Below are positions 1,542 through 30,975 of a DNA stretch of 31,495 nt, piece after piece (within the stretch, counting starts at the first letter, position 1; every line of letters begins with the position of its first letter). The stretch lies in the IMG/VR virus record IMGVR_UViG_3300008450_000263, positions 1 to 31,495 of that record; one strand, given 5' to 3'. The notes beneath the pieces were generated by a model that was not told the DNA's origin, did not search any database, and saw only the letters and a program-made list of their open reading frames with translations. A program made the position numbers and the translations under genes. This DNA comes from a virus.

Positions 1542-1768
1542 GCTTTCCACCATCCTTCATCTGGATCATCACAAATATACAATTCTTCAGAACAACCACA
1601 AGGGCATTGAAAACCAGTTACCCAAAACCCTTGCCACATAGGTTCAAAATAACTAGCACCTGAACAATAAGGAGTCCCACAATATTTATCGGCAGGCCTA
1701 CTTTCAAACTCTCCAAAAAAATCTGGAGCATCAAAATCAGGTTTATCACTTAATAAATCACTGCTCAT
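1538..1768 (-). CDS. Cys-rich, probably zinc-binding small protein (76 aa)
   Basis: The frame is open further upstream, but that part overlaps the 91-aa gene. I take the ATG at 1766-1768 (MSSDLLSDKPDF), with AGGAG about 10 nt upstream, as the start. The body carries KYCGTPYCSG, QCPCGCSEELYIC and DDPDEGWW. The paired Cys groups strongly suggest a structural zinc site. An acidic N-terminus precedes it. No family is recognised. Confidence 0.65.
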   Translation of the reverse strand: MSSDLLSDKPDFDAPDFFGEFESRPADKYCGTPYCSGASYFEPMWQGFWVTGFQCPCGCSEELYICDDPDEGWWKA

Positions 1769-2033
1769 TCTTAATGATCTCCTCATGCTTAGAATGATTC
1801 TCATCAACTTTTCTAAACTTAGAACCAGAAGGATTAGAAAAATATTCAGCAATAGGCCCAACTTCTTCGCCGGCACCATACTCAAAGATACGGAAATACC
1901 AGTTACTCAAATTGACACCATACTGATTTTCAATAATCCTAGCTGCTTTCCTAGACGCTTCTTCAGGTGTTAATGCTTCTGTAATCTGAATAGCGATCCT
2001 AGCCTCTACAACATAATAATTTTCATTAGCCAT
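1758..2033 (-). CDS. Hypothetical protein (91 aa)
   Basis: Start at the ATG at 2031-2033 (MANENYYVVEARIAIQ), preceded by GGATGTGGGC. It overlaps the upstream gene by 8 nt. An N-terminal strand is followed by a helix TPEEASRKAARIIENQYGV, then NWYFRIFEYG. The pattern (a beta strand, an EEA-rich helix, then a Tyr-rich strand) is common in small phage proteins of unknown role. No motif allows a functional call. Confidence 0.65.
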   Translation of the reverse strand: MANENYYVVEARIAIQITEALTPEEASRKAARIIENQYGVNLSNWYFRIFEYGAGEEVGPIAEYFSNPSGSKFRKVDENHSKHEEIIKNEQ

Positions 2034-2328
2034 GCCCACATCCAATCTGACCGCATTGGCCACAAAAATCATTAACATCAATCAAAGTCAATTGGGAAAT
2101 ATCAAAGTCAAACCTTCTGTCATCTCCAACCATATAACATTCTACAACAGAATCGGAAACAACTTCAACTTCTTCCCAACCGAAAAATACTTCACCGGAA
2201 TCATCAGATTCAAAGTATTCGACATACTGCTCTTCGATACTTTTAGCCCAATCATCAATCCAGAAAGCAATGCCACCATATTCCTCTACAGTAACATACT
2301 TACCGAAGTCTACTTCTTCAACTTTCAT
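2026..2328 (-). CDS. Hypothetical acidic protein with Cys/His C-terminus (100 aa)
   Basis: Start at the ATG at 2326-2328 (MKVEEVDFGKYVTVEEYGG), with GAGG five bases upstream (GAGGTTAAAATG). The body is very acidic, and the C-terminus DFCGQCGQIGCGHG carries a compact C-x2-C-x4-C-x-H group that could bind zinc. It follows the 43-aa membrane peptide by 7 nt. Function unknown. Confidence 0.65.
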   Translation of the reverse strand: MKVEEVDFGKYVTVEEYGGIAFWIDDWAKSIEEQYVEYFESDDSGEVFFGWEEVEVVSDSVVECYMVGDDRRFDFDISQLTLIDVNDFCGQCGQIGCGHG

Positions 2329-2507: not shown

Positions 2508-3887
2508 TCAATTACCTCCATCATAAAGACGAACAAGAAGATTACCAATATGCTGATCAGCAACCGCACGAAAACCCGATTCCTCATCAGTAAACATAGT
2601 TGCAATATGATCATACTCATGAACAAGAGTAGAAGTAAGAAGTTCTAAATCATCAAGAATAACAGCAGACAAATACACTTCATTTGTCTTCATATTAGCA
2701 ACACCATAAATACAATCTTGCTCACCATGAGGCAAAAAGAACTTCACATCTTGCACAAAATGATCAAAAGAAGGAATGAACTCTGTAACAATAGACTTAG
2801 CTCTATTGTAGAAATCAACTTTCTCCGCTGGAAGATCGAAAAAGTCATACTCAATTTCATCACCGAGAACACTAGAAGCACACGGAACACCAATTCTTTC
2901 CAGCATCTTATAGAGAACTTCACTCTTAACTTCTACGATCTCACAATCACGCAAAGAAAATTGTGCTTTATACTTCATCAACTCAGTAGGAACAGCAATC
3001 TTATCACCATGAATATTCTTCCAAGCAACACGGAAAGCCGAAAACTCAGTCTCAACAAAATAGCTATCAATATAGTGAGAAGGAATTGTCCATTCCCAAA
3101 TAGCATTATGGGAATTATTAATCAATCTTGAAGCAATATCAATATGACTATCATCAGTAGCAGACAGAATAGAGAAACAATGAGAGACTTTTGAATAGAT
3201 ATCCCAATTGTTACGAACACGACGTTCCTCATTCAAAACAACTGAATTCAACTCATAGTCAAACAGTGAACGACAATTGCTATTGTCATCAGTATGAACA
3301 AGAACACCCTTATAAAAGAAACGAGCGTTATCAGCAGAAGAATCATAAATCTTACAATTATTGTAAAACTTTGCAATCTCAGTACGCTGAATAGAGAAAT
3401 ACTTATCGAAGTTATCAACAATATCTAACAACTCAGGAACAGCAGTCAAATAAACAGCAAAAACTCCAGGCTCATACTTAACTTCATCGACAATATCTAC
3501 AGAATAAGAATTACCACCGGAAGTAAACTCATCTAACGCATTAGAAAAAGCTTCACGGAAAATTTGAAACTCACTATCCCAAGAAAGAACACCAGCATCA
3601 ACAGTAAAAGAAGAAGACTTCAAATCTGAATCATTGTAAAGATAAAAAATACAATCGATTCCACTTTCTTCCATCGAAATATATTGCATCTTGTAAGGAC
3701 CAAGATCATCCTCACCAACATTAATCCATTCCCAACCATTTCTTAATGCTGCAATTGGAGCGAATTTTGAACCTGAACCGAATTGACCAATTGTAAGATC
3801 ATCATCTCGTTTTGTAGAAAGACCTAACTTTTCCAAATACAAACGATTTACATTCTCTGCTTTATTGGCTATTCTAATGTAAGACAT
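2508..3887 (-). CDS. GHKL-like ATPase / HExxH metallopeptidase-type fusion protein
   Basis: 459 aa, ATG at 3885-3887 with AGGAG eight bases upstream. Near the N-terminus, LTIGQFGSGSKFAPIAALRN (about 32-49) resembles the Gly-rich ATP-lid box of GHKL ATPases. FREAFSNALDEF (about 110-121) resembles the N-box (E-x3-N-A-x-D). The C-terminus has LVHEYDHIATMFTDEESGF, with HEYDH at about 423-427, a zincin-type HExxH motif with acidic residues downstream. Known GHKL proteins include Hsp90, MutL, histidine kinases and phage rIIA-like proteins; a peptidase tail is unusual. It is the first gene of the accessory operon, behind a long regulatory region. A role in host takeover or anti-defence is inference. 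ATPase-like motifs 0.65, peptidase motif 0.6. Confidence 0.75.
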   Translation of the reverse strand: MSYIRIANKAENVNRLYLEKLGLSTKRDDDLTIGQFGSGSKFAPIAALRNGWEWINVGEDDLGPYKMQYISMEESGIDCIFYLYNDSDLKSSSFTVDAGVLSWDSEFQIFREAFSNALDEFTSGGNSYSVDIVDEVKYEPGVFAVYLTAVPELLDIVDNFDKYFSIQRTEIAKFYNNCKIYDSSADNARFFYKGVLVHTDDNSNCRSLFDYELNSVVLNEERRVRNNWDIYSKVSHCFSILSATDDSHIDIASRLINNSHNAIWEWTIPSHYIDSYFVETEFSAFRVAWKNIHGDKIAVPTELMKYKAQFSLRDCEIVEVKSEVLYKMLERIGVPCASSVLGDEIEYDFFDLPAEKVDFYNRAKSIVTEFIPSFDHFVQDVKFFLPHGEQDCIYGVANMKTNEVYLSAVILDDLELLTSTLVHEYDHIATMFTDEESGFRAVADQHIGNLLVRLYDGGN

Positions 3888-3936
3888 TTAATGCTCTCCT
3901 AAGAAGCGATAATTATTGGATGTCCTTATAGAGTCC

Positions 3937-3945
3937 ATCTTAGCA
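3937..3945 (-). promoter_or_regulatory. Candidate promoter of the accessory operon
   Basis: On the minus strand TGC-TAAGAT is an extended -10 element of TANNNT type, with TTGAGA as a possible -35 about 15 nt upstream (a short spacer). It lies about 50 nt ahead of the 459-aa gene's ATG. An A8 tract (T8 at 3990-3997 on the plus strand) lies further upstream and could act as an UP-like element. The call is motif-based. Confidence 0.35.
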
Positions 3946-4052
3946 CCGATAAAGCTCTCTCAAAGATATTTAACCGATCCTCACAGATATTTTTTTTAGG
4001 CTCTCGCATAGACCTGGAGTTAGATTTCTGAGTTATTTCGAGCGAACACAAA

Positions 4053-4096
4053 TAGGAACATAATTATGCGGCCAGCAAATTAGGTACATAATTATG
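4053..4096. promoter_or_regulatory. Pair of directly repeated palindromes, operator-like
   Basis: TAGGAACATAATTATG (4053-4068) and TAGGTACATAATTATG (4081-4096) match at 15 of 16 positions and start 28 bp apart. Each contains the perfect 10-bp palindrome CATAATTATG (4059-4068 and 4087-4096). Two identically oriented palindromic sites in a non-coding region upstream of an operon are typical of cooperative repressor or activator binding. Which regulator would bind is unknown; the MerR-like, WhiB and AT-hook-like proteins in this window are candidates. Confidence 0.5.
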
Positions 4097-4110
4097 GTGG
4101 AATTTAATAC

Positions 4111-4146
4111 AAAAAAATGGGAGCTAATTTTTAGCTCCCATTTTTC
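4111..4146 (-). terminator. Rho-independent terminator after the Rpf-like gene
   Basis: TGGGAGCTAA (4118-4127) pairs perfectly with TTAGCTCCCA (4131-4140) around a 3-nt loop. On the minus strand the stem is followed by seven T residues (A7 at 4111-4117), and on the plus strand by five, so it could work in both directions. It lies about 150 nt downstream of the Rpf-like stop and separates that operon from the accessory operon. Confidence 0.85.
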
Positions 4147-4196
4147 CGAAAAAAGTATTCAATTTTATTTATAATAAACAACCATACAAAAAATAA

Positions 4197-4304
4197 CCTT
4201 TATAAGATCTTATTTAAAAAGCCCAGATTTCACCTTTATAAGACCTGTTTTCAAAAGCCCAGATTTGACCTTTATAAGATCATTTTTCAAAAGCCCAAGT
4301 CAGA
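4197..4304. repeat. Three tandem 36-bp repeats downstream of the Rpf-like gene
   Basis: Units at 4197-4232, 4233-4268 and 4269-4304 are each 36 bp. Adjacent units match at 31/36 and 29/36 positions. CCTTTATAAGA at the start of the unit and AAAAGCCCA in its second half are invariant. The unit next to the gene overlaps the Rpf-like stop codon (4300-4302). There are no spacers, so this is not a CRISPR array. Possible roles are iterons of a replication origin, protein-binding sites or an mRNA 3' element. Confidence 0.85.
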
Positions 4305-4839
4305 GCCAGCCAAATTTGCGGCTACACCCCGGCCAAGCTCTCCATCCGGAACTAGCAAGAACCTTTTCAGCAACAACTATCTGCTGCTCTCTAGAAGCTT
4401 CCCACGGATGCGGAGCAAACTCTCCGCCACCAAAAGAAAGCCAAGTTGAATAACTATTTTGGTGCATGAATTGGAGTCCTCCACCAAAACCATTTCCAGT
4501 ATTAGTAGCCCAATTTCCGCCAGCCTCGCATTGAGCTAATTGATCCCACCTAGATCCATCGCCGGCATCATAATTAGGTTCAATCGCCGGCTTCGGTGCC
4601 TCAGGTGCCTCAGGTGCGATATACTGTGTCGTTGTCGTCGTATTCAGAAACGACAAGTCAATTGTGGTAGTCGTAGTCTCAACGACAGGTTCCACGATAA
4701 CTTCTGCAATTTGCACTTCCTCTATAACAAAAGCTTCATCATTTCCACCAGACTCGCCAAAAGCGGCCTGCTGGGTGACAAAGCCCAATACCAACACTAC
4801 AAAAACAATACTTGCAACAATAATCTTGTTCTTACTCAT
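4300..4839 (-). CDS. Rpf-like transglycosylase (cell-wall lysin)
   Basis: 179 aa from the ATG at 4837-4839, preceded by GAGGATATA. Residues about 6-26 form a signal or membrane segment (IIVASIVFVVLVLGFV). A low-complexity linker follows, with two Thr runs (TTTTT) and APEAPEAPK, whose DNA shows 9-bp repeats. The C-terminal ~80 residues match the resuscitation-promoting-factor fold: SRWDQLAQCEAGGNW, with catalytic Glu about 105, G-G-L-Q-F, and paired Cys about 104 and 172. Rpf domains cleave peptidoglycan and are typical of Actinobacteria. In a phage this suggests a lysin or secreted muralytic enzyme acting outside the membrane. It ends in the tandem repeats, ahead of a strong terminator. Confidence 0.9.
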   Translation of the reverse strand: MSKNKIIVASIVFVVLVLGFVTQQAAFGESGGNDEAFVIEEVQIAEVIVEPVVETTTTTIDLSFLNTTTTTQYIAPEAPEAPKPAIEPNYDAGDGSRWDQLAQCEAGGNWATNTGNGFGGGLQFMHQNSYSTWLSFGGGEFAPHPWEASREQQIVVAEKVLASSGWRAWPGCSRKFGWL

Positions 4840-4852
4840 TATATCCTCATTT

Positions 4853-5077
4853 CTACAGTCCACACTCTACGGAGGAAATGGCTAAGTACGGAATGAATTT
4901 CACATTCTCTACCCTGATCTCTTGATCATCGCCCATCTCCGCAGTCACAAAAACGCCATCCACATTGATGACTCGGATATACCCTTTGCATACCCTATCT
5001 GCGAGGTGGAAATTTATATTAACGAATTGACGTTTTTTAGCCAATTCTTCGAAGTATTCGATTTTAGTATTCCACAC
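4853..5077 (-). CDS. Hypothetical protein, possible small beta-barrel (74 aa)
   Basis: The frame opens at a TTG (5081-5083), but GAGG then sits only 3 nt away. The GTG at 5075-5077 has a good 9-nt spacing and is preferred. The product (VWNTKIEYFEELAKKRQF...) has a helical start, then alternating strands (FVNINFHLADRVCKGYIRVINVDGV) like a small SH3- or Sm-like barrel. It is the first gene after the promoter at 5099-5107 and lies 13 nt ahead of the Rpf-like gene, so the two are probably co-transcribed. Function unknown. Confidence 0.65.
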   Translation of the reverse strand: MWNTKIEYFEELAKKRQFVNINFHLADRVCKGYIRVINVDGVFVTAEMGDDQEIRVENVKFIPYLAISSVECGL

Positions 5078-6028: not shown

Positions 6029-6289
6029 TCAGGTTAACTTGGGCTTCTTTGACGAGTAATATGAACGCACAATCTTCCCACGCTTAAAGAAGACACCGCC
6101 CCACACTCCATACCCATCGCGCTGCGACATACCATACTCCCTGCACTGTTTAACCACAGGACAGCTTTCGCATACCGCAATAATATCCCTCTTTTCTTTA
6201 GCAGTCATGAGCTCGAAATCCTCGAAAAACAAAGAAGTATCAAGACCCTTTTCTTTGCAAAGAGCTTTACTTAAATCATTCTTATTCAT
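6029..6289 (-). CDS. whiB: WhiB-family iron-sulfur transcription factor
   Basis: 86 aa, ATG with GGAG six bases upstream. Four Cys in WhiB arrangement: C11, then C40-x2-C43-x5-C49 (CESCPVVKQC), followed by the signature G-V-W-G-G turn at 61-65 and a basic tail (FFKRGKIVRSYYSSKKPK). WhiB proteins bind a 4Fe-4S cluster through these Cys, contact the primary sigma factor, and are found in Actinobacteria and their phages. It directly follows the large terminase gene by 7 nt, at the end of the packaging operon, where it could redirect host or late phage transcription. Confidence 0.92.
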   Translation of the reverse strand: MNKNDLSKALCKEKGLDTSLFFEDFELMTAKEKRDIIAVCESCPVVKQCREYGMSQRDGYGVWGGVFFKRGKIVRSYYSSKKPKLT

Positions 6290-25488: not shown

Positions 25489-28400
25489 TTAACTCATGGG
25501 GAAGAATTCTCTACCCCCGCCGCCACCACTAGGCGGCGTATATGCTACTCCCGTAGATCCAAATGTGAACCCCGGCCTCTCTATTGTATCACCATAAGCA
25601 CGAAGAGACAAGCTATGCCTGATACCCCCGTCATAACTAATTGAGCTAGAAACGACCCAATATTTTTTATCAACAATACCAAGATCTTCAAGTTTGCTGA
25701 CAGTAATCAAATCCCCCAATTGAAGATTCGGGACAGCAAGAACCTCCATATCCAAAATTCTGACAGGTTCTTTATAATATCCAAGAACATAATCAGCAAC
25801 AAGTTTAGCATAATCTTTATTTTGAATAAAAGGATTATCAATCTTCAACTCTTTTACGCCATATCTTCTTATATTCGAAGTAACTTCAGAAGACATTTCG
25901 GTAATCAACTCTTCACTAGAAGAATTGCTAACAGCAATGCCAGCTAAAACAAAACCATCTTTTATAGTCGTCAACGCATTTGTCCCAGAAAGAAGATAAA
26001 CTGTGTCTTTAGGAGCATTCTCATTCACAGAAACAATTACTTCCGCAGAATTTGCTGAAGCAGAAAACCTGTCAATATCAATAAATGGATTAGTTACAAG
26101 TGGATACTTAACTGCAGCGGCGGGCTTCGAGGAATAGACAATATTGAAATATTTTGCTTCACGAACCAAAGACCCGACTGGATGCCAAGAGATAGCTGTC
26201 CCAAAATAACCCCTCTCCAAGCCAGTGAGGGTATTTCCACTAATGCCCGCATATCTAATAATTTCATCATCTATCTTAATATAACCAGAACTAAGCCAAT
26301 AAGGATCTGTGGTCGAAGCCAAAGTAATGCCAGATGACTGTGGCGTCATAGACGCCGCCAATGTTCCAGTAATAAGGCTCTCCCCATCAGAAGCAGACCA
26401 AAGGCCTGACGTTGAAGTACTCTCAATTGAAATTTTCTTTACAGCAACAGATATTTTATTTGTCTGCACTTCATTGACAAAGTTTCCCTCAATGATATTA
26501 GTGTCATCAGAAAAACTATATTGACTATTTTGATATCTCTCAAAAATTTCCTCATGAATAAAATTTCTAAACTCATATCTAAAGAATCCATATTCATCAA
26601 TATAAAACATACCTAAATCAGCAGTTGCAATATTTAACATTGCATCCCAGTAAGTTTCATCTGCAGTATACAAATATCGATAGGTGGAAATTAAAGCAAC
26701 AGATGATGAAACAAAATGATTATATATACTTTGATCTGACAAAGCGTAGTCATAAAAAGAAAAGTTGCTGACAAAAGTTTCTGTGGTATATCCACTCGAT
26801 GAGAAAATATAAAAATATACACAATTTGCTGTATTTATTGCCATAGAAGTCGAAAGAGTAGCGCTCACAACCCCATCGATGATCAAGTCAAAAACATTTG
26901 GAGAGCCACCAGTTTTTCTTACAACAATTTGGTGCGGTATTGAAGCGTCCACCGGAGAGGCCGTAATTTTTTGCTCCACGCCTGAAGTATTCATGAATGC
27001 CCACGAATATGTTATCTCAGAACCTGATACTTCATAATATAATAAGTAATTATAACTCGAAAAACTTGAATTTGCATTTTTCATAAACATAATCTCTGTA
27101 TCAAACTGAGCAAAATTATCAAGATCTACATAATGAAATAACTCAGTAGTCCAGCTATTTGTTGAATTACCAATAATATTTCCACTATCATAATCAGAAA
27201 AATACCCGCTCATTGAACCCTGCCTATAGTACGGCTCAAATGTTGATTCAATATTTGAAATTAATTTTCTTTCACTTTCATCTTGAATAGAAAGAGAATC
27301 TGAATATAACAAAGACTTGCCCAATAAAGTGTTCGGCAGAACCATATTCATATCAAGATATTGACAATGGTCAAAGAGATATGCGGTGCCCGATGCATCA
27401 AGAGGATCTACAGTACTCAACAACTCTTCGTAAGTGTCGTTGAATGGAATATATATTTTAGGTTGATCAAGAAAAATAACTTCATCATATTTATCAAGAT
27501 AAATAATTTTTCTTCTAGGAAATCCCGCAGCAAGCATTAAATCAGAAATCGCACGCCCAGCAGTAATGCCTTGACTTACATAGCCATCTACCGTTTTTTC
27601 CTGAAGATACTTAGAATAATCACGCAAAGAAACTTCCGTTGTCATAGATGAATTACTAAATGTCCAAGTATCAGAATACATTTCTGACGCAAGAACAATC
27701 TCCTCAGAAGTACCGTACTTGGTCAACTCATGATCAAGGGAAATGAAAAATGGGACATCCGGGGTTGTATATTGTCCGAACAAAGTATTCCCAAACATAT
27801 TGAATACTTTATCAGTATTATCAAGGACTAGGCTTCCGTTATTTGCCGCAGTAGCGCCGATGGGAAGTGAAGCATCATAATTATCCCTAACTTTTTCTAC
27901 AGAAAAAGAAATAACATAATCACTCAAATCAACTTCCCAAATAGGATTAATGCTAAATAATCTAGCATAGTCATAATTATTTACAGTTGCTGTGGGAATC
28001 ACTCTTATTGAAATAATATCTAAATACTCATCATCTAGCAATCCAAGATCAGATGCTGTGATGTACGTATAAGAATCACCAGAGAAGGCTTTCCCTCCGG
28101 AAATAGTAGTGAGATCGCTTTTTGTAATAATATAGTTAAAAGTATCAACTCTGCCGCTAAGATATCCAGTGGAAACAAAAATTTTATTACACTTTGCCGC
28201 ATCAAATGTTAATTCAACAAAATCAGTAGTTACAAAAAGCCCGTCACCATCAGACTGCAGTCTTGACATCCATCCATAATTTTCCTCAATATTAGCTTTA
28301 TTTGTAGTATTAGCCAAAGGACTAACGCTATAAATTGAATTATTAGCCTTAATAACTGAGCCTTTATTATTAAGCATATTAGTGAAAGCATAGGTAAATG

Positions 28401-30975
28401 TTTCTTCGGGCTTTCCGTCAATAATACATTCAGCATTGCAATAATCATCGACTGTTTGCTGGGCAAGAGTTGCTCCATTATCAACACTGTAATACAAAGC
28501 ATCTAAGTCTGTTTCTGTTAAAGCATAGTCGAACATAGCAAATTCACTAATGTAAGCGTAAGCAGCAAGATGATATCCAGCAGGATCTCCCAAAGTTGTT
28601 CCGGCATAATCTCCGCCAAACATAATATATGGTGTTTTACCTGTCACTACATCTTTTAAGACAAAATTTGCGGGAATATCATTTCTGGAAGCAACTTCCA
28701 CACCATCAATATATATAGAAAGTTTAGTGCTATTTTTAATAACAGATACATGATATAAAGTATTGTTAGTCAAAGTTGTCGAATTAAGTTCATACGAAGT
28801 TGAACTACTATTTATAAGAACATTTAGATAATCATTTGCGGCTTCAACATAAGAAATTCTTAGTGCTGTCTCTCTATCACTATTTCCTAGCCAAAAAATA
28901 GTATACTTACGATTTGTGCTAGATTGTTTATATAAATAAAAACTATAAGTAAAATTGCTAGCATTATTCAGAGATTGAAACTGAGTCGTCTTTGCAGAAG
29001 ACAAAGCGGTAGAGCTATACAAATATTTTTTCTCTGACGCGGTTGAATTATCATAATTAAAATAAAATGCACCAGAGAGAGAATCGAACCCGTAAGCAGC
29101 AAAGTAATAATATTGACACTCTAAAGCATATAGATTTGCCGTAGGATTAAGTGTTACTTGATTTCCAAATCCTAATGCGCATCTTTTTGCTTCATCAGTT
29201 CTAAGTTTTGGATGATCAAAATAACCCTGTCCGATTAAAGTTCCAGACGAAGCATTAGTCGGCTCTGAAGTTCCCATGTCATAGAGCAGAAAAAGATTGT
29301 ATTTAGCGTGGAATCTATAATAGTGAGTAGTGCTGAACGACGCCAAAGTTCCGGGATCAATATTGGCGAGAGGGATTGCATTACCATCAATAAAAGCAGT
29401 AATTGTAATCGGATATGTATAACTAAAACTACTAAAAGACAATGCAACACAGTTATCTTCATCAATAAATCTAGTATAAATATTTCTACCCTTGCCGCTA
29501 TCAACCCTAAAATCAACAAAATGATCTAAAGAATTTACCGGGGTAGATACATAATATAAATCATCATCAATAACACCATCAAGAAACTTTAATTTACCAC
29601 CAACACATTTCCATTTTGGATCATTTGCATCCCATGAATAATATGACATATCGCTGCTAGTAGCATCAACAGACCCACTTTTTGTAAAAAAATCTACACT
29701 ATTTCCATTATATATATTAATTGTAGTATAATTACCAGAAGCTGATGCTGAAGTATTCACCCTACCGGAAGAGATCTTATTAATAGCATTATAGTAAGAA
29801 GTATTTAAGTAAAATGTACCCGCGCCAATTCTGTCAACATAATATACTGTTGTCGTATTTATTCCAGACATACCACCAATTTCCTCAAACATTACAGGAG
29901 TCCCCGAAGCAAGACCATGAGAACCATAGGAAACTATAGCAGCGCTAGCTTTTGAAACATAAGCGTTCAATAAAAATCCGCTCTGACCCTTATTAAACGT
30001 ATCAATAAGTCTATTAGGCTCTAAAATTTGAATATGATTTTGAAAAGAATCGTGATAAGTATTTGCAGTCTGATCGTAAATAGGAAGTCCGGCATCTGAA
30101 GTCCCTAAAGCGACATCAAAAGCTTGTTCCCCATAATCCTTGACTCTATGCCCGCCCGCCACATTATTTGTCGCTTTATGAACAGTATAACTATAAAGAG
30201 TTCCAACTAAAGCGCTAGTTGTCTCAACCATACCCTCAGGTAAATTATTTACAGCATTTGAATAATTAGTATTTAAGTTAAATGTAGTCGCAGTTGAATT
30301 TTGGACATAATATATAGGCAAGTCACTTGATGCATCTAACTCGGTAATGCCCCCGGGCATAGTTCCGCCAAAAGTAGTTAAAACAATAGCATCTCCATCA
30401 GATAGCCCGTGATTGGCAGTAAAAGTGGCCCTAGCGCCAACAGTTACAGTGATGCCGGCAAGACCTATAGTTGGCCCGGCATAGTAATTGACAACTCTTC
30501 CCGTAGCAGAGCCCGACACGGCATTGGCTCTTGTAGTATTTAAATAAAAAGTATTGGCAGTTTTTTGTTGAACATAAAATCTATTAGTATAATGAATTTC
30601 TCCAGATTTAACTCCATACTCAATACCGCCAACAGTATCAAGAGGTAAACCAACGCTGGCATCAGTGGAAAAGACTATTTCATCGCCATTATTTAGCCCA
30701 TGAGCAGGAATTAGAACTTGTAAAGGACCAGTGTAGCTAGTCCATTGAAGCAGACAATCACTTATCCTTGTTGATGCACCAAAATCAGTTTGATCAAACT
30801 TCAAATACATTTGAGGGTTACGATCCAAAATCTGTTTCTCATAAGTATGACTAGAAGAATGAACCTTCAAGTTATTAAGAGAACGCAAATCAGACATCCA
30901 CGCCTTAACACTTGGACGCACAACTTGATTATCAGAACTTAAGCTCTCATTGAGCTCATCAGAAATAGGGATCAT
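25489..30975 (-). CDS. Large tail hub/fibre protein with HGL repeats and LamG-like regions
   Basis: 1828 aa, ATG overlapping the upstream stop, SD GAGGAA. The N-terminus has three related repeats, each starting with HGL (about residues 92, 189 and 353) and containing Y-Y-V or F-Y-V and T-F-x-L-N-T-x-x-x-N-A-[VI]. Two lectin-like (LamG/concanavalin-type) regions are suggested at about 630-830 and 1170-1425, with IYIDGVEVASRN and LIIDGVVSATL strands. Between and after them lies a hub-like part (ISFSVEKVRDNYDASLPIG; SLRDYSKYLQ; CDS end SGGGGGREFFPMS). It probably binds host surface carbohydrates and forms the tail tip. Confidence 0.85.
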   Translation of the reverse strand: MIPISDELNESLSSDNQVVRPSVKAWMSDLRSLNNLKVHSSSHTYEKQILDRNPQMYLKFDQTDFGASTRISDCLLQWTSYTGPLQVLIPAHGLNNGDEIVFSTDASVGLPLDTVGGIEYGVKSGEIHYTNRFYVQQKTANTFYLNTTRANAVSGSATGRVVNYYAGPTIGLAGITVTVGARATFTANHGLSDGDAIVLTTFGGTMPGGITELDASSDLPIYYVQNSTATTFNLNTNYSNAVNNLPEGMVETTSALVGTLYSYTVHKATNNVAGGHRVKDYGEQAFDVALGTSDAGLPIYDQTANTYHDSFQNHIQILEPNRLIDTFNKGQSGFLLNAYVSKASAAIVSYGSHGLASGTPVMFEEIGGMSGINTTTVYYVDRIGAGTFYLNTSYYNAINKISSGRVNTSASASGNYTTINIYNGNSVDFFTKSGSVDATSSDMSYYSWDANDPKWKCVGGKLKFLDGVIDDDLYYVSTPVNSLDHFVDFRVDSGKGRNIYTRFIDEDNCVALSFSSFSYTYPITITAFIDGNAIPLANIDPGTLASFSTTHYYRFHAKYNLFLLYDMGTSEPTNASSGTLIGQGYFDHPKLRTDEAKRCALGFGNQVTLNPTANLYALECQYYYFAAYGFDSLSGAFYFNYDNSTASEKKYLYSSTALSSAKTTQFQSLNNASNFTYSFYLYKQSSTNRKYTIFWLGNSDRETALRISYVEAANDYLNVLINSSSTSYELNSTTLTNNTLYHVSVIKNSTKLSIYIDGVEVASRNDIPANFVLKDVVTGKTPYIMFGGDYAGTTLGDPAGYHLAAYAYISEFAMFDYALTETDLDALYYSVDNGATLAQQTVDDYCNAECIIDGKPEETFTYAFTNMLNNKGSVIKANNSIYSVSPLANTTNKANIEENYGWMSRLQSDGDGLFVTTDFVELTFDAAKCNKIFVSTGYLSGRVDTFNYIITKSDLTTISGGKAFSGDSYTYITASDLGLLDDEYLDIISIRVIPTATVNNYDYARLFSINPIWEVDLSDYVISFSVEKVRDNYDASLPIGATAANNGSLVLDNTDKVFNMFGNTLFGQYTTPDVPFFISLDHELTKYGTSEEIVLASEMYSDTWTFSNSSMTTEVSLRDYSKYLQEKTVDGYVSQGITAGRAISDLMLAAGFPRRKIIYLDKYDEVIFLDQPKIYIPFNDTYEELLSTVDPLDASGTAYLFDHCQYLDMNMVLPNTLLGKSLLYSDSLSIQDESERKLISNIESTFEPYYRQGSMSGYFSDYDSGNIIGNSTNSWTTELFHYVDLDNFAQFDTEIMFMKNANSSFSSYNYLLYYEVSGSEITYSWAFMNTSGVEQKITASPVDASIPHQIVVRKTGGSPNVFDLIIDGVVSATLSTSMAINTANCVYFYIFSSSGYTTETFVSNFSFYDYALSDQSIYNHFVSSSVALISTYRYLYTADETYWDAMLNIATADLGMFYIDEYGFFRYEFRNFIHEEIFERYQNSQYSFSDDTNIIEGNFVNEVQTNKISVAVKKISIESTSTSGLWSASDGESLITGTLAASMTPQSSGITLASTTDPYWLSSGYIKIDDEIIRYAGISGNTLTGLERGYFGTAISWHPVGSLVREAKYFNIVYSSKPAAAVKYPLVTNPFIDIDRFSASANSAEVIVSVNENAPKDTVYLLSGTNALTTIKDGFVLAGIAVSNSSSEELITEMSSEVTSNIRRYGVKELKIDNPFIQNKDYAKLVADYVLGYYKEPVRILDMEVLAVPNLQLGDLITVSKLEDLGIVDKKYWVVSSSISYDGGIRHSLSLRAYGDTIERPGFTFGSTGVAYTPPSGGGGGREFFPMS

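Follow-up and report, generated by a model that had tools for sequence, protein, structure and literature searches.

A widespread phage protein family predicted to combine a circularly permuted GHKL domain with a zincin-like domain

GHKL domains drive Hsp90, gyrase, MutL, MORC and histidine kinases, and among phage proteins one is found in RIIA of phage T4 (phrog_612). Their motifs canonically follow one another in the order N-box, G1 box, G2 box. The Wss1/WLM and SprT-like metalloproteases and the minigluzincins selecase and abylysin share a zincin fold around an HExxH motif. Here, we describe a gene from the IMG/VR virus record IMGVR_UViG_3300008450_000263 (positions 1 to 31,495, the whole 31,495-nucleotide stretch analyzed, hereafter the window) whose 459-amino acid product resembles both groups. 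Judged from sequence profiles and predicted structures, it very probably consists of a circularly permuted GHKL domain followed by a zincin-like domain. The protein belongs to a widespread, undescribed phage family in which an Hsp90/MORC-type domain with swapped halves precedes a zinc protease-like domain, an arrangement that suggests a nucleotide-controlled protease and may serve against the host. Fusion of a GHKL domain to a metalloprotease would be an unusual way of placing proteolysis under energy control, and a natural circular permutant would reveal which connections the GHKL fold and its lid mechanics truly need. The open literature that we searched (subscription literature being outside the scope) held nothing relevant on a permuted GHKL domain or on a GHKL domain joined to a zincin.

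An earlier note on this DNA, made from the letters alone, had joined GHKL-type ATPase motifs to an HExxH peptidase motif in the product of an open reading frame at 2508-3887. The frame is real; its strand, which had been left unstated, is the minus strand. All three motifs lie where they had been claimed (IGQFGSGSK at residues 33-41, FREAFSNALDEF at residues 110-121, and HEYDH at residues 423-427). They are not products of chance, being invariant or almost so in 51 diverse relatives with identity down to ~20%, while a protein of the same composition is expected to contain 0.02 HExxH motifs. A comparison with the closest relative (L003) over 104 codons revealed 9 synonymous and 4 non-synonymous differences (proportions pS 0.137 and pN 0.016, pN/pS ~0.12). 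Because an in-frame TAA directly precedes the ATG and an AGGAG ribosome-binding site lies upstream, the start codon is secure, and the idea that a wrong start conceals a conventional N-terminal half is ruled out. The features of the gene and its product are as follows.

2508..3887, minus strand: whole gene, 459 amino acids, with predicted permuted GHKL domain, transducer-like middle and zincin-like domain.
3444..3887, minus strand: predicted permuted Bergerat (GHKL) domain, residues 1-148, from hhalign permutation tests and the AlphaFold2 domain model with VIA-align.
3864..3866, minus strand: N8, at the adenine-binding Asp position of the G1 box (D-x-G); Asn in 51/51, register from hhalign and VIA-align.
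3765..3830, minus strand: ATP lid with the G2 box S-T-K-R...I-G-Q-F-G-S-G-x-K, residues 20-41, from alignment, model and hhalign.
3516..3572, minus strand: N-box helix R111-E112...N116-A-x-D119, residues 106-124, invariant and placed after the lid, not before it.
2862..3437, minus strand: transducer/middle-domain-like region, residues 151-342, from the VIA-align ranges (1-342 on the N-terminal and middle domains of TRAP1, 1-252 on MORC2).
3222..3230, minus strand: E220-x-R222, invariant; by deduced register, R222 may be the transducer-domain Arg/Lys that contacts the gamma-phosphate.
2511..2843, minus strand: zincin-like domain, residues 349-459, from structural alignment and a sub-threshold Pfam SprT-like match.
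2607..2621, minus strand: HEYDH (423-427), the HExxH motif, from sequence and family alignment.
2586..2588, minus strand: D434, candidate third metal ligand, kept in 50/51, from the HMMER alignment to Wss1.
2556..2558, minus strand: D444 in the FRxxAD motif, alternative candidate third ligand, kept in 47/51.

In the window protein, the motifs run G1-like, G2, N-box instead of N-box, G1, G2, and the earlier note had wavered between a circular permutation and a different fold. Using hhalign, we aligned a profile of residues 1-240 to one built from 12 RIIA proteins. Against RIIA in its native order the lid alone matched (39.8 bits, P 6e-5), so that no RIIA-type N-terminal GHKL domain of canonical order was recovered; the second-best local match was the N-box, in reversed order. 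We then permuted the RIIA domain in steps of four residues and rescored each version: breakpoints lying after the N-box and before the lid gave 54-63 bits (P typically ~3e-8), and others ~40. A control set of 40 block-shuffled RIIA templates reached a maximum of 41.9. The same procedure with 22 HSP90 sequences raised the score from 42.3 in native order to 54.5-58.7 (P down to 4e-8), with the rise limited to cuts between N-box and lid, and the permuted alignment extended to about residue 153, through the strand following the N-box. These tests are direct evidence of a permutation, obtained from two independent families. Once permuted, the lid S-T-K...IGxFGxGSK and the N-box RE..xN..DA of T4 RIIA match residues 20-126. 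The window protein differs from RIIA in its swapped motif order, in the Asn that replaces the G1 Asp, and in its C-terminal zincin-like domain; no rIIB-like gene was identified beside it (no RIIB profile search was made). A HMMER comparison with PDB sequences returned, as its top two matches, E. coli HtpG with lid and N-box swapped and Wss1, both weakly (E 0.1).

AlphaFold2, run with a family alignment from which two phage-record rows had been left out, predicted two domains with a mean predicted local distance difference test score (pLDDT) of 92.7 and a predicted template modeling score of 0.83, the only weak stretch being the lid (residues 20-40). Residues 1-240 folded alone gave a pLDDT of 89.8. 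Foldseek and VIA-align placed residues 1-342 on Hsp90, TRAP1, and MORC, and residues 349-459 on Wss1, selecase/abylysin, and SprT-type zincins. For residues 1-240, the top 50 VIA-align rows were GHKL proteins without exception, which points to a Bergerat alpha/beta sandwich in the predicted model. The best matches were MORC2 (Z 8.0, root mean square deviation [rmsd] 4.4 over 192 residues), HSP90B (7.9), TRAP1 (7.8), GyrB (6.7), and Topo VI (6.5). All 50 alignments began at model residue 1, which they paired with the G1 strand of the target, and skipped the 60-150 preceding target residues including the N-box (target start residues: Hsc82 72, HSP90B 81, HSP90A 86, TRAP1 151, GRP94 142, MORC2 61, and M. 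tuberculosis GyrB 72). Full-length Hsp90 matches with rmsd ~14-15 were over-extended alignments and were not used.

In the profile alignments and the predicted model, the chain thus opens with the G1-box strand, continues with the lid/G2 box and then the C-terminal Bergerat strands, and only afterwards reaches the N-box helix; its new ends lie in the hairpin that links the post-N-box strand to the G1 strand. The N-box helix would then sit in its usual position in the nucleotide pocket. The RIIA and HSP90 profile tests, AlphaFold2, and the structural alignment all support a circular permutation of the GHKL domain as the cause of the reversed order. A different fold is rejected because the structural matches of the N-terminal domain are all GHKL and the permutation tests agree on two families. 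The structure prediction that the earlier note had asked for thus favors a Bergerat fold in the N-terminal part of the protein. The family is GHKL by homology, yet it departs from two formal features of the superfamily, the motif order and the G1 Asp.

Like Hsp90, HtpG, and TRAP1 (Z 7-8), the protein is predicted to join a Bergerat fold to a middle domain, and its lid is near-identical (IGQFGxG), HtpG being the best PDB sequence match. In contrast to these chaperones, it is permuted, has Asn at the D79 equivalent, and carries a protease-like C terminus in place of the Hsp90 C-terminal dimerization domain. MORC2/MORC3, GyrB, MutL, and Topo VI-B, which combine GHKL with an S5 transducer, align with model residues 1-240/252 over ATPase and transducer; relative to them, the window protein is permuted, and no CW, coiled-coil, or Toprim parts were seen in it, a zincin-like domain standing there instead.

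With a 5-sequence alignment as the query, one scan of viral contigs returned 164 matching stretches; 116 of these encode relatives, so the family has at least 116 members on viral contigs. We retrieved the best 80, built an alignment of 70 distinct complete proteins, and counted residues in a set of 51. Sixteen positions are invariant in 51/51 (N8, G22, S24, I33, G34, G37, S38, G39, G99, W103, R111, E112, N116, D119, E220, and R222), and others almost so (Q35, F36, K41, R49, H423 in 47, E424 in 50, D426, H427 in 49, D434 in 50, F439, R440, A443, and D444 in 47); conservation of the N-box, lid, and HExxH residues amounts to 92-100%. All 51 members matched phrog_8203 and phrog_6077, function-less PHROGs entries that already hold the family under numbers and leave its domain make-up and permutation undescribed, and 8/51 weakly matched the RIIA PHROG. 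The window protein has no Pfam or NCBIfam match above cut-off, and the permutation accounts for the failure of family searches to find these proteins. Weak Pfam matches such as Ras_bdg_2, as well as PADLOC matches, were inconsistent and judged to be chance. A profile of 3 relatives found no match among PDB sequences.

Among isolated phages, tblastn found matches only in two huge-phage genomes; further relatives in Stenotrophomonas, Synechococcus, and Brevundimonas phages were reached only when a huge-phage member served as the query, and a single-protein viral scan with that member found no relatives. The swapped motif order is kept in these distant cultured-phage proteins, namely those of Stenotrophomonas phage Sonora, Synechococcus phage Ssp-JY42 (where the relative is annotated "HATPase"), and Brevundimonas phage StAshley. 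A scan of a bacterial and archaeal collection gave two matches, one on a contig of an "archaeon" metagenome bin and one on a contig of a Tenacibaculum bin; the former (L087, NZBO01000077.1) is probably a mis-binned phage contig. Clear matches in bacterial genomes of one phylum were limited to 2/296, including the starting genome, which suggests a mainly viral family. It is common in environmental viral contigs, where it is filed as "unknown function", and naming it makes many genes testable. A subgroup of ~540-570 amino acids (L013, L021, L062, and others) carries ~90 extra residues past the zincin part, which the window protein lacks.

The nucleotide-site residues fall into two classes. The N-box pattern E-x3-N-(A)-x-D is complete (E112, N116, and D119, on model helix 106-124), as is the G-x-x-G-x-G of the G2 box (G34, G37, and G39, in the lid that forms the flexible part of the model). 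We take E112, N116, and D119 to be the equivalents of E33, N37, and D40 of Hsp90. In the G1 box (D-x-G), Asn (N8) stands where the adenine-binding Asp would be. The protein starts 7 residues ahead of N8, which hhalign aligns to the Asp of RDFGPG in RIIA. The seventh residue past the alignment start is D79 in Hsc82, D88 in HSP90B, D93 in HSP90A, D158 in TRAP1, D149 in GRP94, D68 in MORC2, and D79 in GyrB, each of which we take to be the adenine-binding Asp. Thus, N8 holds the place of that Asp. Either adenine is read differently in the permuted site, or nucleotide preference is altered, or binding is weak. R222 presumably lies near the Arg/Lys of the catalytic arm in Hsp90, TRAP1, and GyrB, in a register deduced from alignment ends on the assumption that the last 18 residues are gap-free.

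The C-terminal residues 349-459 aligned with Wss1 (5xbn) at Z 10.4 and rmsd 2.9 over 106 residues, followed by selecase (Z 8.2), abylysin (~8), and 6mdx, an entry for a DNA-protein crosslink (DPC) repair protease (Z 7.7). A Pfam SprT-like match (E 0.0013) stayed under the gathering score, and the Pfam WLM match was weak. The predicted model thus shows an SprT/WLM (Wss1)-like zincin fold around the conserved HEYDH, as the earlier note had expected. Of the outcomes that it had named as damaging, a structure lacking a Bergerat fold and poorly conserved residues did not materialize: the matches are to Bergerat proteins and the residues are conserved. As to an HEYDH buried away from any zinc site, the predicted domain that carries the motif matches a zincin fold. 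In contrast to Wss1/WLM, SprT, and minigluzincins, the protein is fused to a GHKL domain and lacks the third-ligand His, which HMMER aligns with position 433. The next residue is the conserved D434, and D444 lies in the following helix. Thus, the metal site, if present, would consist of HExxH plus an Asp and not of the SprT/WLM set, and either Asp434 or Asp444 may replace the third His. Peptidase activity of the window member is, in our estimate, fairly probable. In several relatives (L105 at 1495-2679, L106 at 1492-2685, L006, and L086), the permuted GHKL part is retained and HExxH has become EExxH; the motif of L005 is degraded, and distant proteins of the Sonora, Ssp-JY42, and StAshley type have EExxH wherever the C-terminal motif is still recognizable. 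Such motifs may represent a decayed or differently metallated site.

The reading that we favor, and hold to be somewhat more probable than its negation, is that the permuted GHKL domain, the transducer-like middle, and the zincin-like metallopeptidase domain form a nucleotide-driven clamp resembling RIIA and MORC and used against the host. Nucleotide binding would close and dimerize the GHKL-transducer part, as in Hsp90, MORC, MutL, and GyrB; the closed clamp would hold a client (a protein, or a protein on DNA) beside the metallopeptidase domain, which would cut it; and hydrolysis through E112 would reopen the clamp. Its most probable use would be an RIIA-like counter-host role in infection, together with a small companion protein encoded downstream. 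That nucleotide gates the peptidase is a possibility to which we give a little less than even chances. With Asn in place of the G1 Asp and without the usual third His ligand, the protein may or may not hydrolyze ATP or cleave peptides, and the ATPase-controlled proteolysis and the host-takeover or anti-defense role raised in the earlier note are therefore inferences. In its boldest form, the family would be the first natural circularly permuted Bergerat NTPase, with the invariant Asp-to-Asn change perhaps shifting nucleotide preference, and, as a GHKL counterpart of the AAA+ proteases, a nucleotide-gated metalloprotease that destroys host proteins such as those of immunity; we regard this full combination as unlikely.

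Several observations weigh against the clamp-protease reading. At the position of the adenine-binding Asp, all aligned members have Asn and one distant relative has Thr, and the D79N change in Hsp90 destroys ATP binding; ordinary ATP binding is therefore not assured. The GHKL part aligns with moderate Z scores (7-8), and since the aligner preserves chain order, the placement of the N-box helix in three dimensions is indirect. Residues 160-250 did not match the second RIIA domain significantly (hhalign, P 0.15), and homology there is not claimed although LNEER against PSREAL looks convincing by eye. At position 433, which aligns with the third His ligand of Wss1/SprT, residues vary (G/T/S/A), and in some distant relatives the motif reads EExxH or is missing. 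As the first His is lost in them, catalysis is not general to the superfamily, part of which may have an inactive peptidase or none.

Part of this evidence can be read differently. A MORC-like DNA clamp with a Wss1/SprT-like protease could strip proteins off phage DNA, in crosslink repair or in clearing host roadblocks. The closest solved folds, MORC2 in an entry with DNA and Wss1, fit this, as does 6mdx, titled "protease dependent DPC repair", and SPRTN acts on DNA-protein crosslinks (PMC5128727). We nevertheless consider such a repair function improbable, as a substrate cannot be read from fold similarity, no DNA-binding motif was identified in the window protein, and the gene adjoins a cell-wall transglycosylase gene and small genes, outside the replication block. 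The protein might instead be an RIIA-like counter-immunity factor that uses its C-terminal domain for binding and not for proteolysis, as would agree with PMC11879866, with the weak RIIA PHROG matches, and with the distant relatives that keep the GHKL part and have EExxH. This seems rather doubtful to us: in the main family, HExxH is 92-98% conserved together with D434 and FRxxAD, beyond what a scaffold needs, while the motif order excludes RIIA proper and no RIIB was identified adjoining the gene in an inspection that included no RIIB profile search. A conventional, non-permuted protein of different fold with look-alike motifs would account for the reversed order and the missing G1 Asp. The permutation tests on two families, the confident model, and the 50/50 GHKL matches in G1 register speak against it, and at the level of prediction this reading is already refuted and has a very small probability.

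The elaborate control region reported upstream of the gene proved real, with a 15-bp-stem terminator, a dyad, and three 36-bp repeats within 3888-4303. These features and the companion gene are listed below.

4113..4145, minus strand: intrinsic terminator in the leader, ahead of the gene's presumed promoter; 15-bp perfect stem, T-run, -19.3 kcal/mol.
4050..4105, no strand: operator-like dyad and direct repeat (CATAATTATG elements), with related sequence in L001, L003 and L007.
4196..4303, no strand: three direct repeats of 36 nucleotides each, kept in the close relative L003.
1758..2081, minus strand: companion gene, ~95-107 amino acids; a companion hidden Markov model from 50/62 related loci matches the window with E 2.4e-37.

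The terminator was recognized by script in L001 and L009 and seen by eye in L003 and L007. Among five relatives checked, the 36-nucleotide repeats were found in L003 and not in L001, L002, L007, or L009. Because the terminator and dyad lie 5' of the gene and recur in relatives, the gene probably heads its own transcription unit. Small minus-strand open reading frames fill part of 1-2412, and it is plausible that the gene leads an operon of tiny proteins, as had been suggested. The companion protein, with the pattern YYVVE...W..R.FEY...EYF.NP...FR, is encoded just downstream of the permuted-GHKL gene in 50/62 related loci. It has no Pfam match and belongs to no known family; it could be a partner, regulator, or substrate.

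The window also encodes phage replication proteins, including a DNA polymerase, DnaB, a primase, a UvsX-like recombinase, RuvC, and a Cas4-like nuclease. A WhiB-like regulator gene lies at 6029-6289 (minus strand, Pfam E 6.5e-13), and an Rpf-type transglycosylase gene at 4300-4863 (minus strand, E 7.6e-29). WhiB and Rpf-like proteins are hallmarks of actinobacteria and their phages, which points to an actinobacterial host. Last, an 1828-amino acid tail protein (25489-30975, minus strand) contains a laminin-G/concanavalin-like lectin domain at about residues 661-823, a candidate receptor-binding module.
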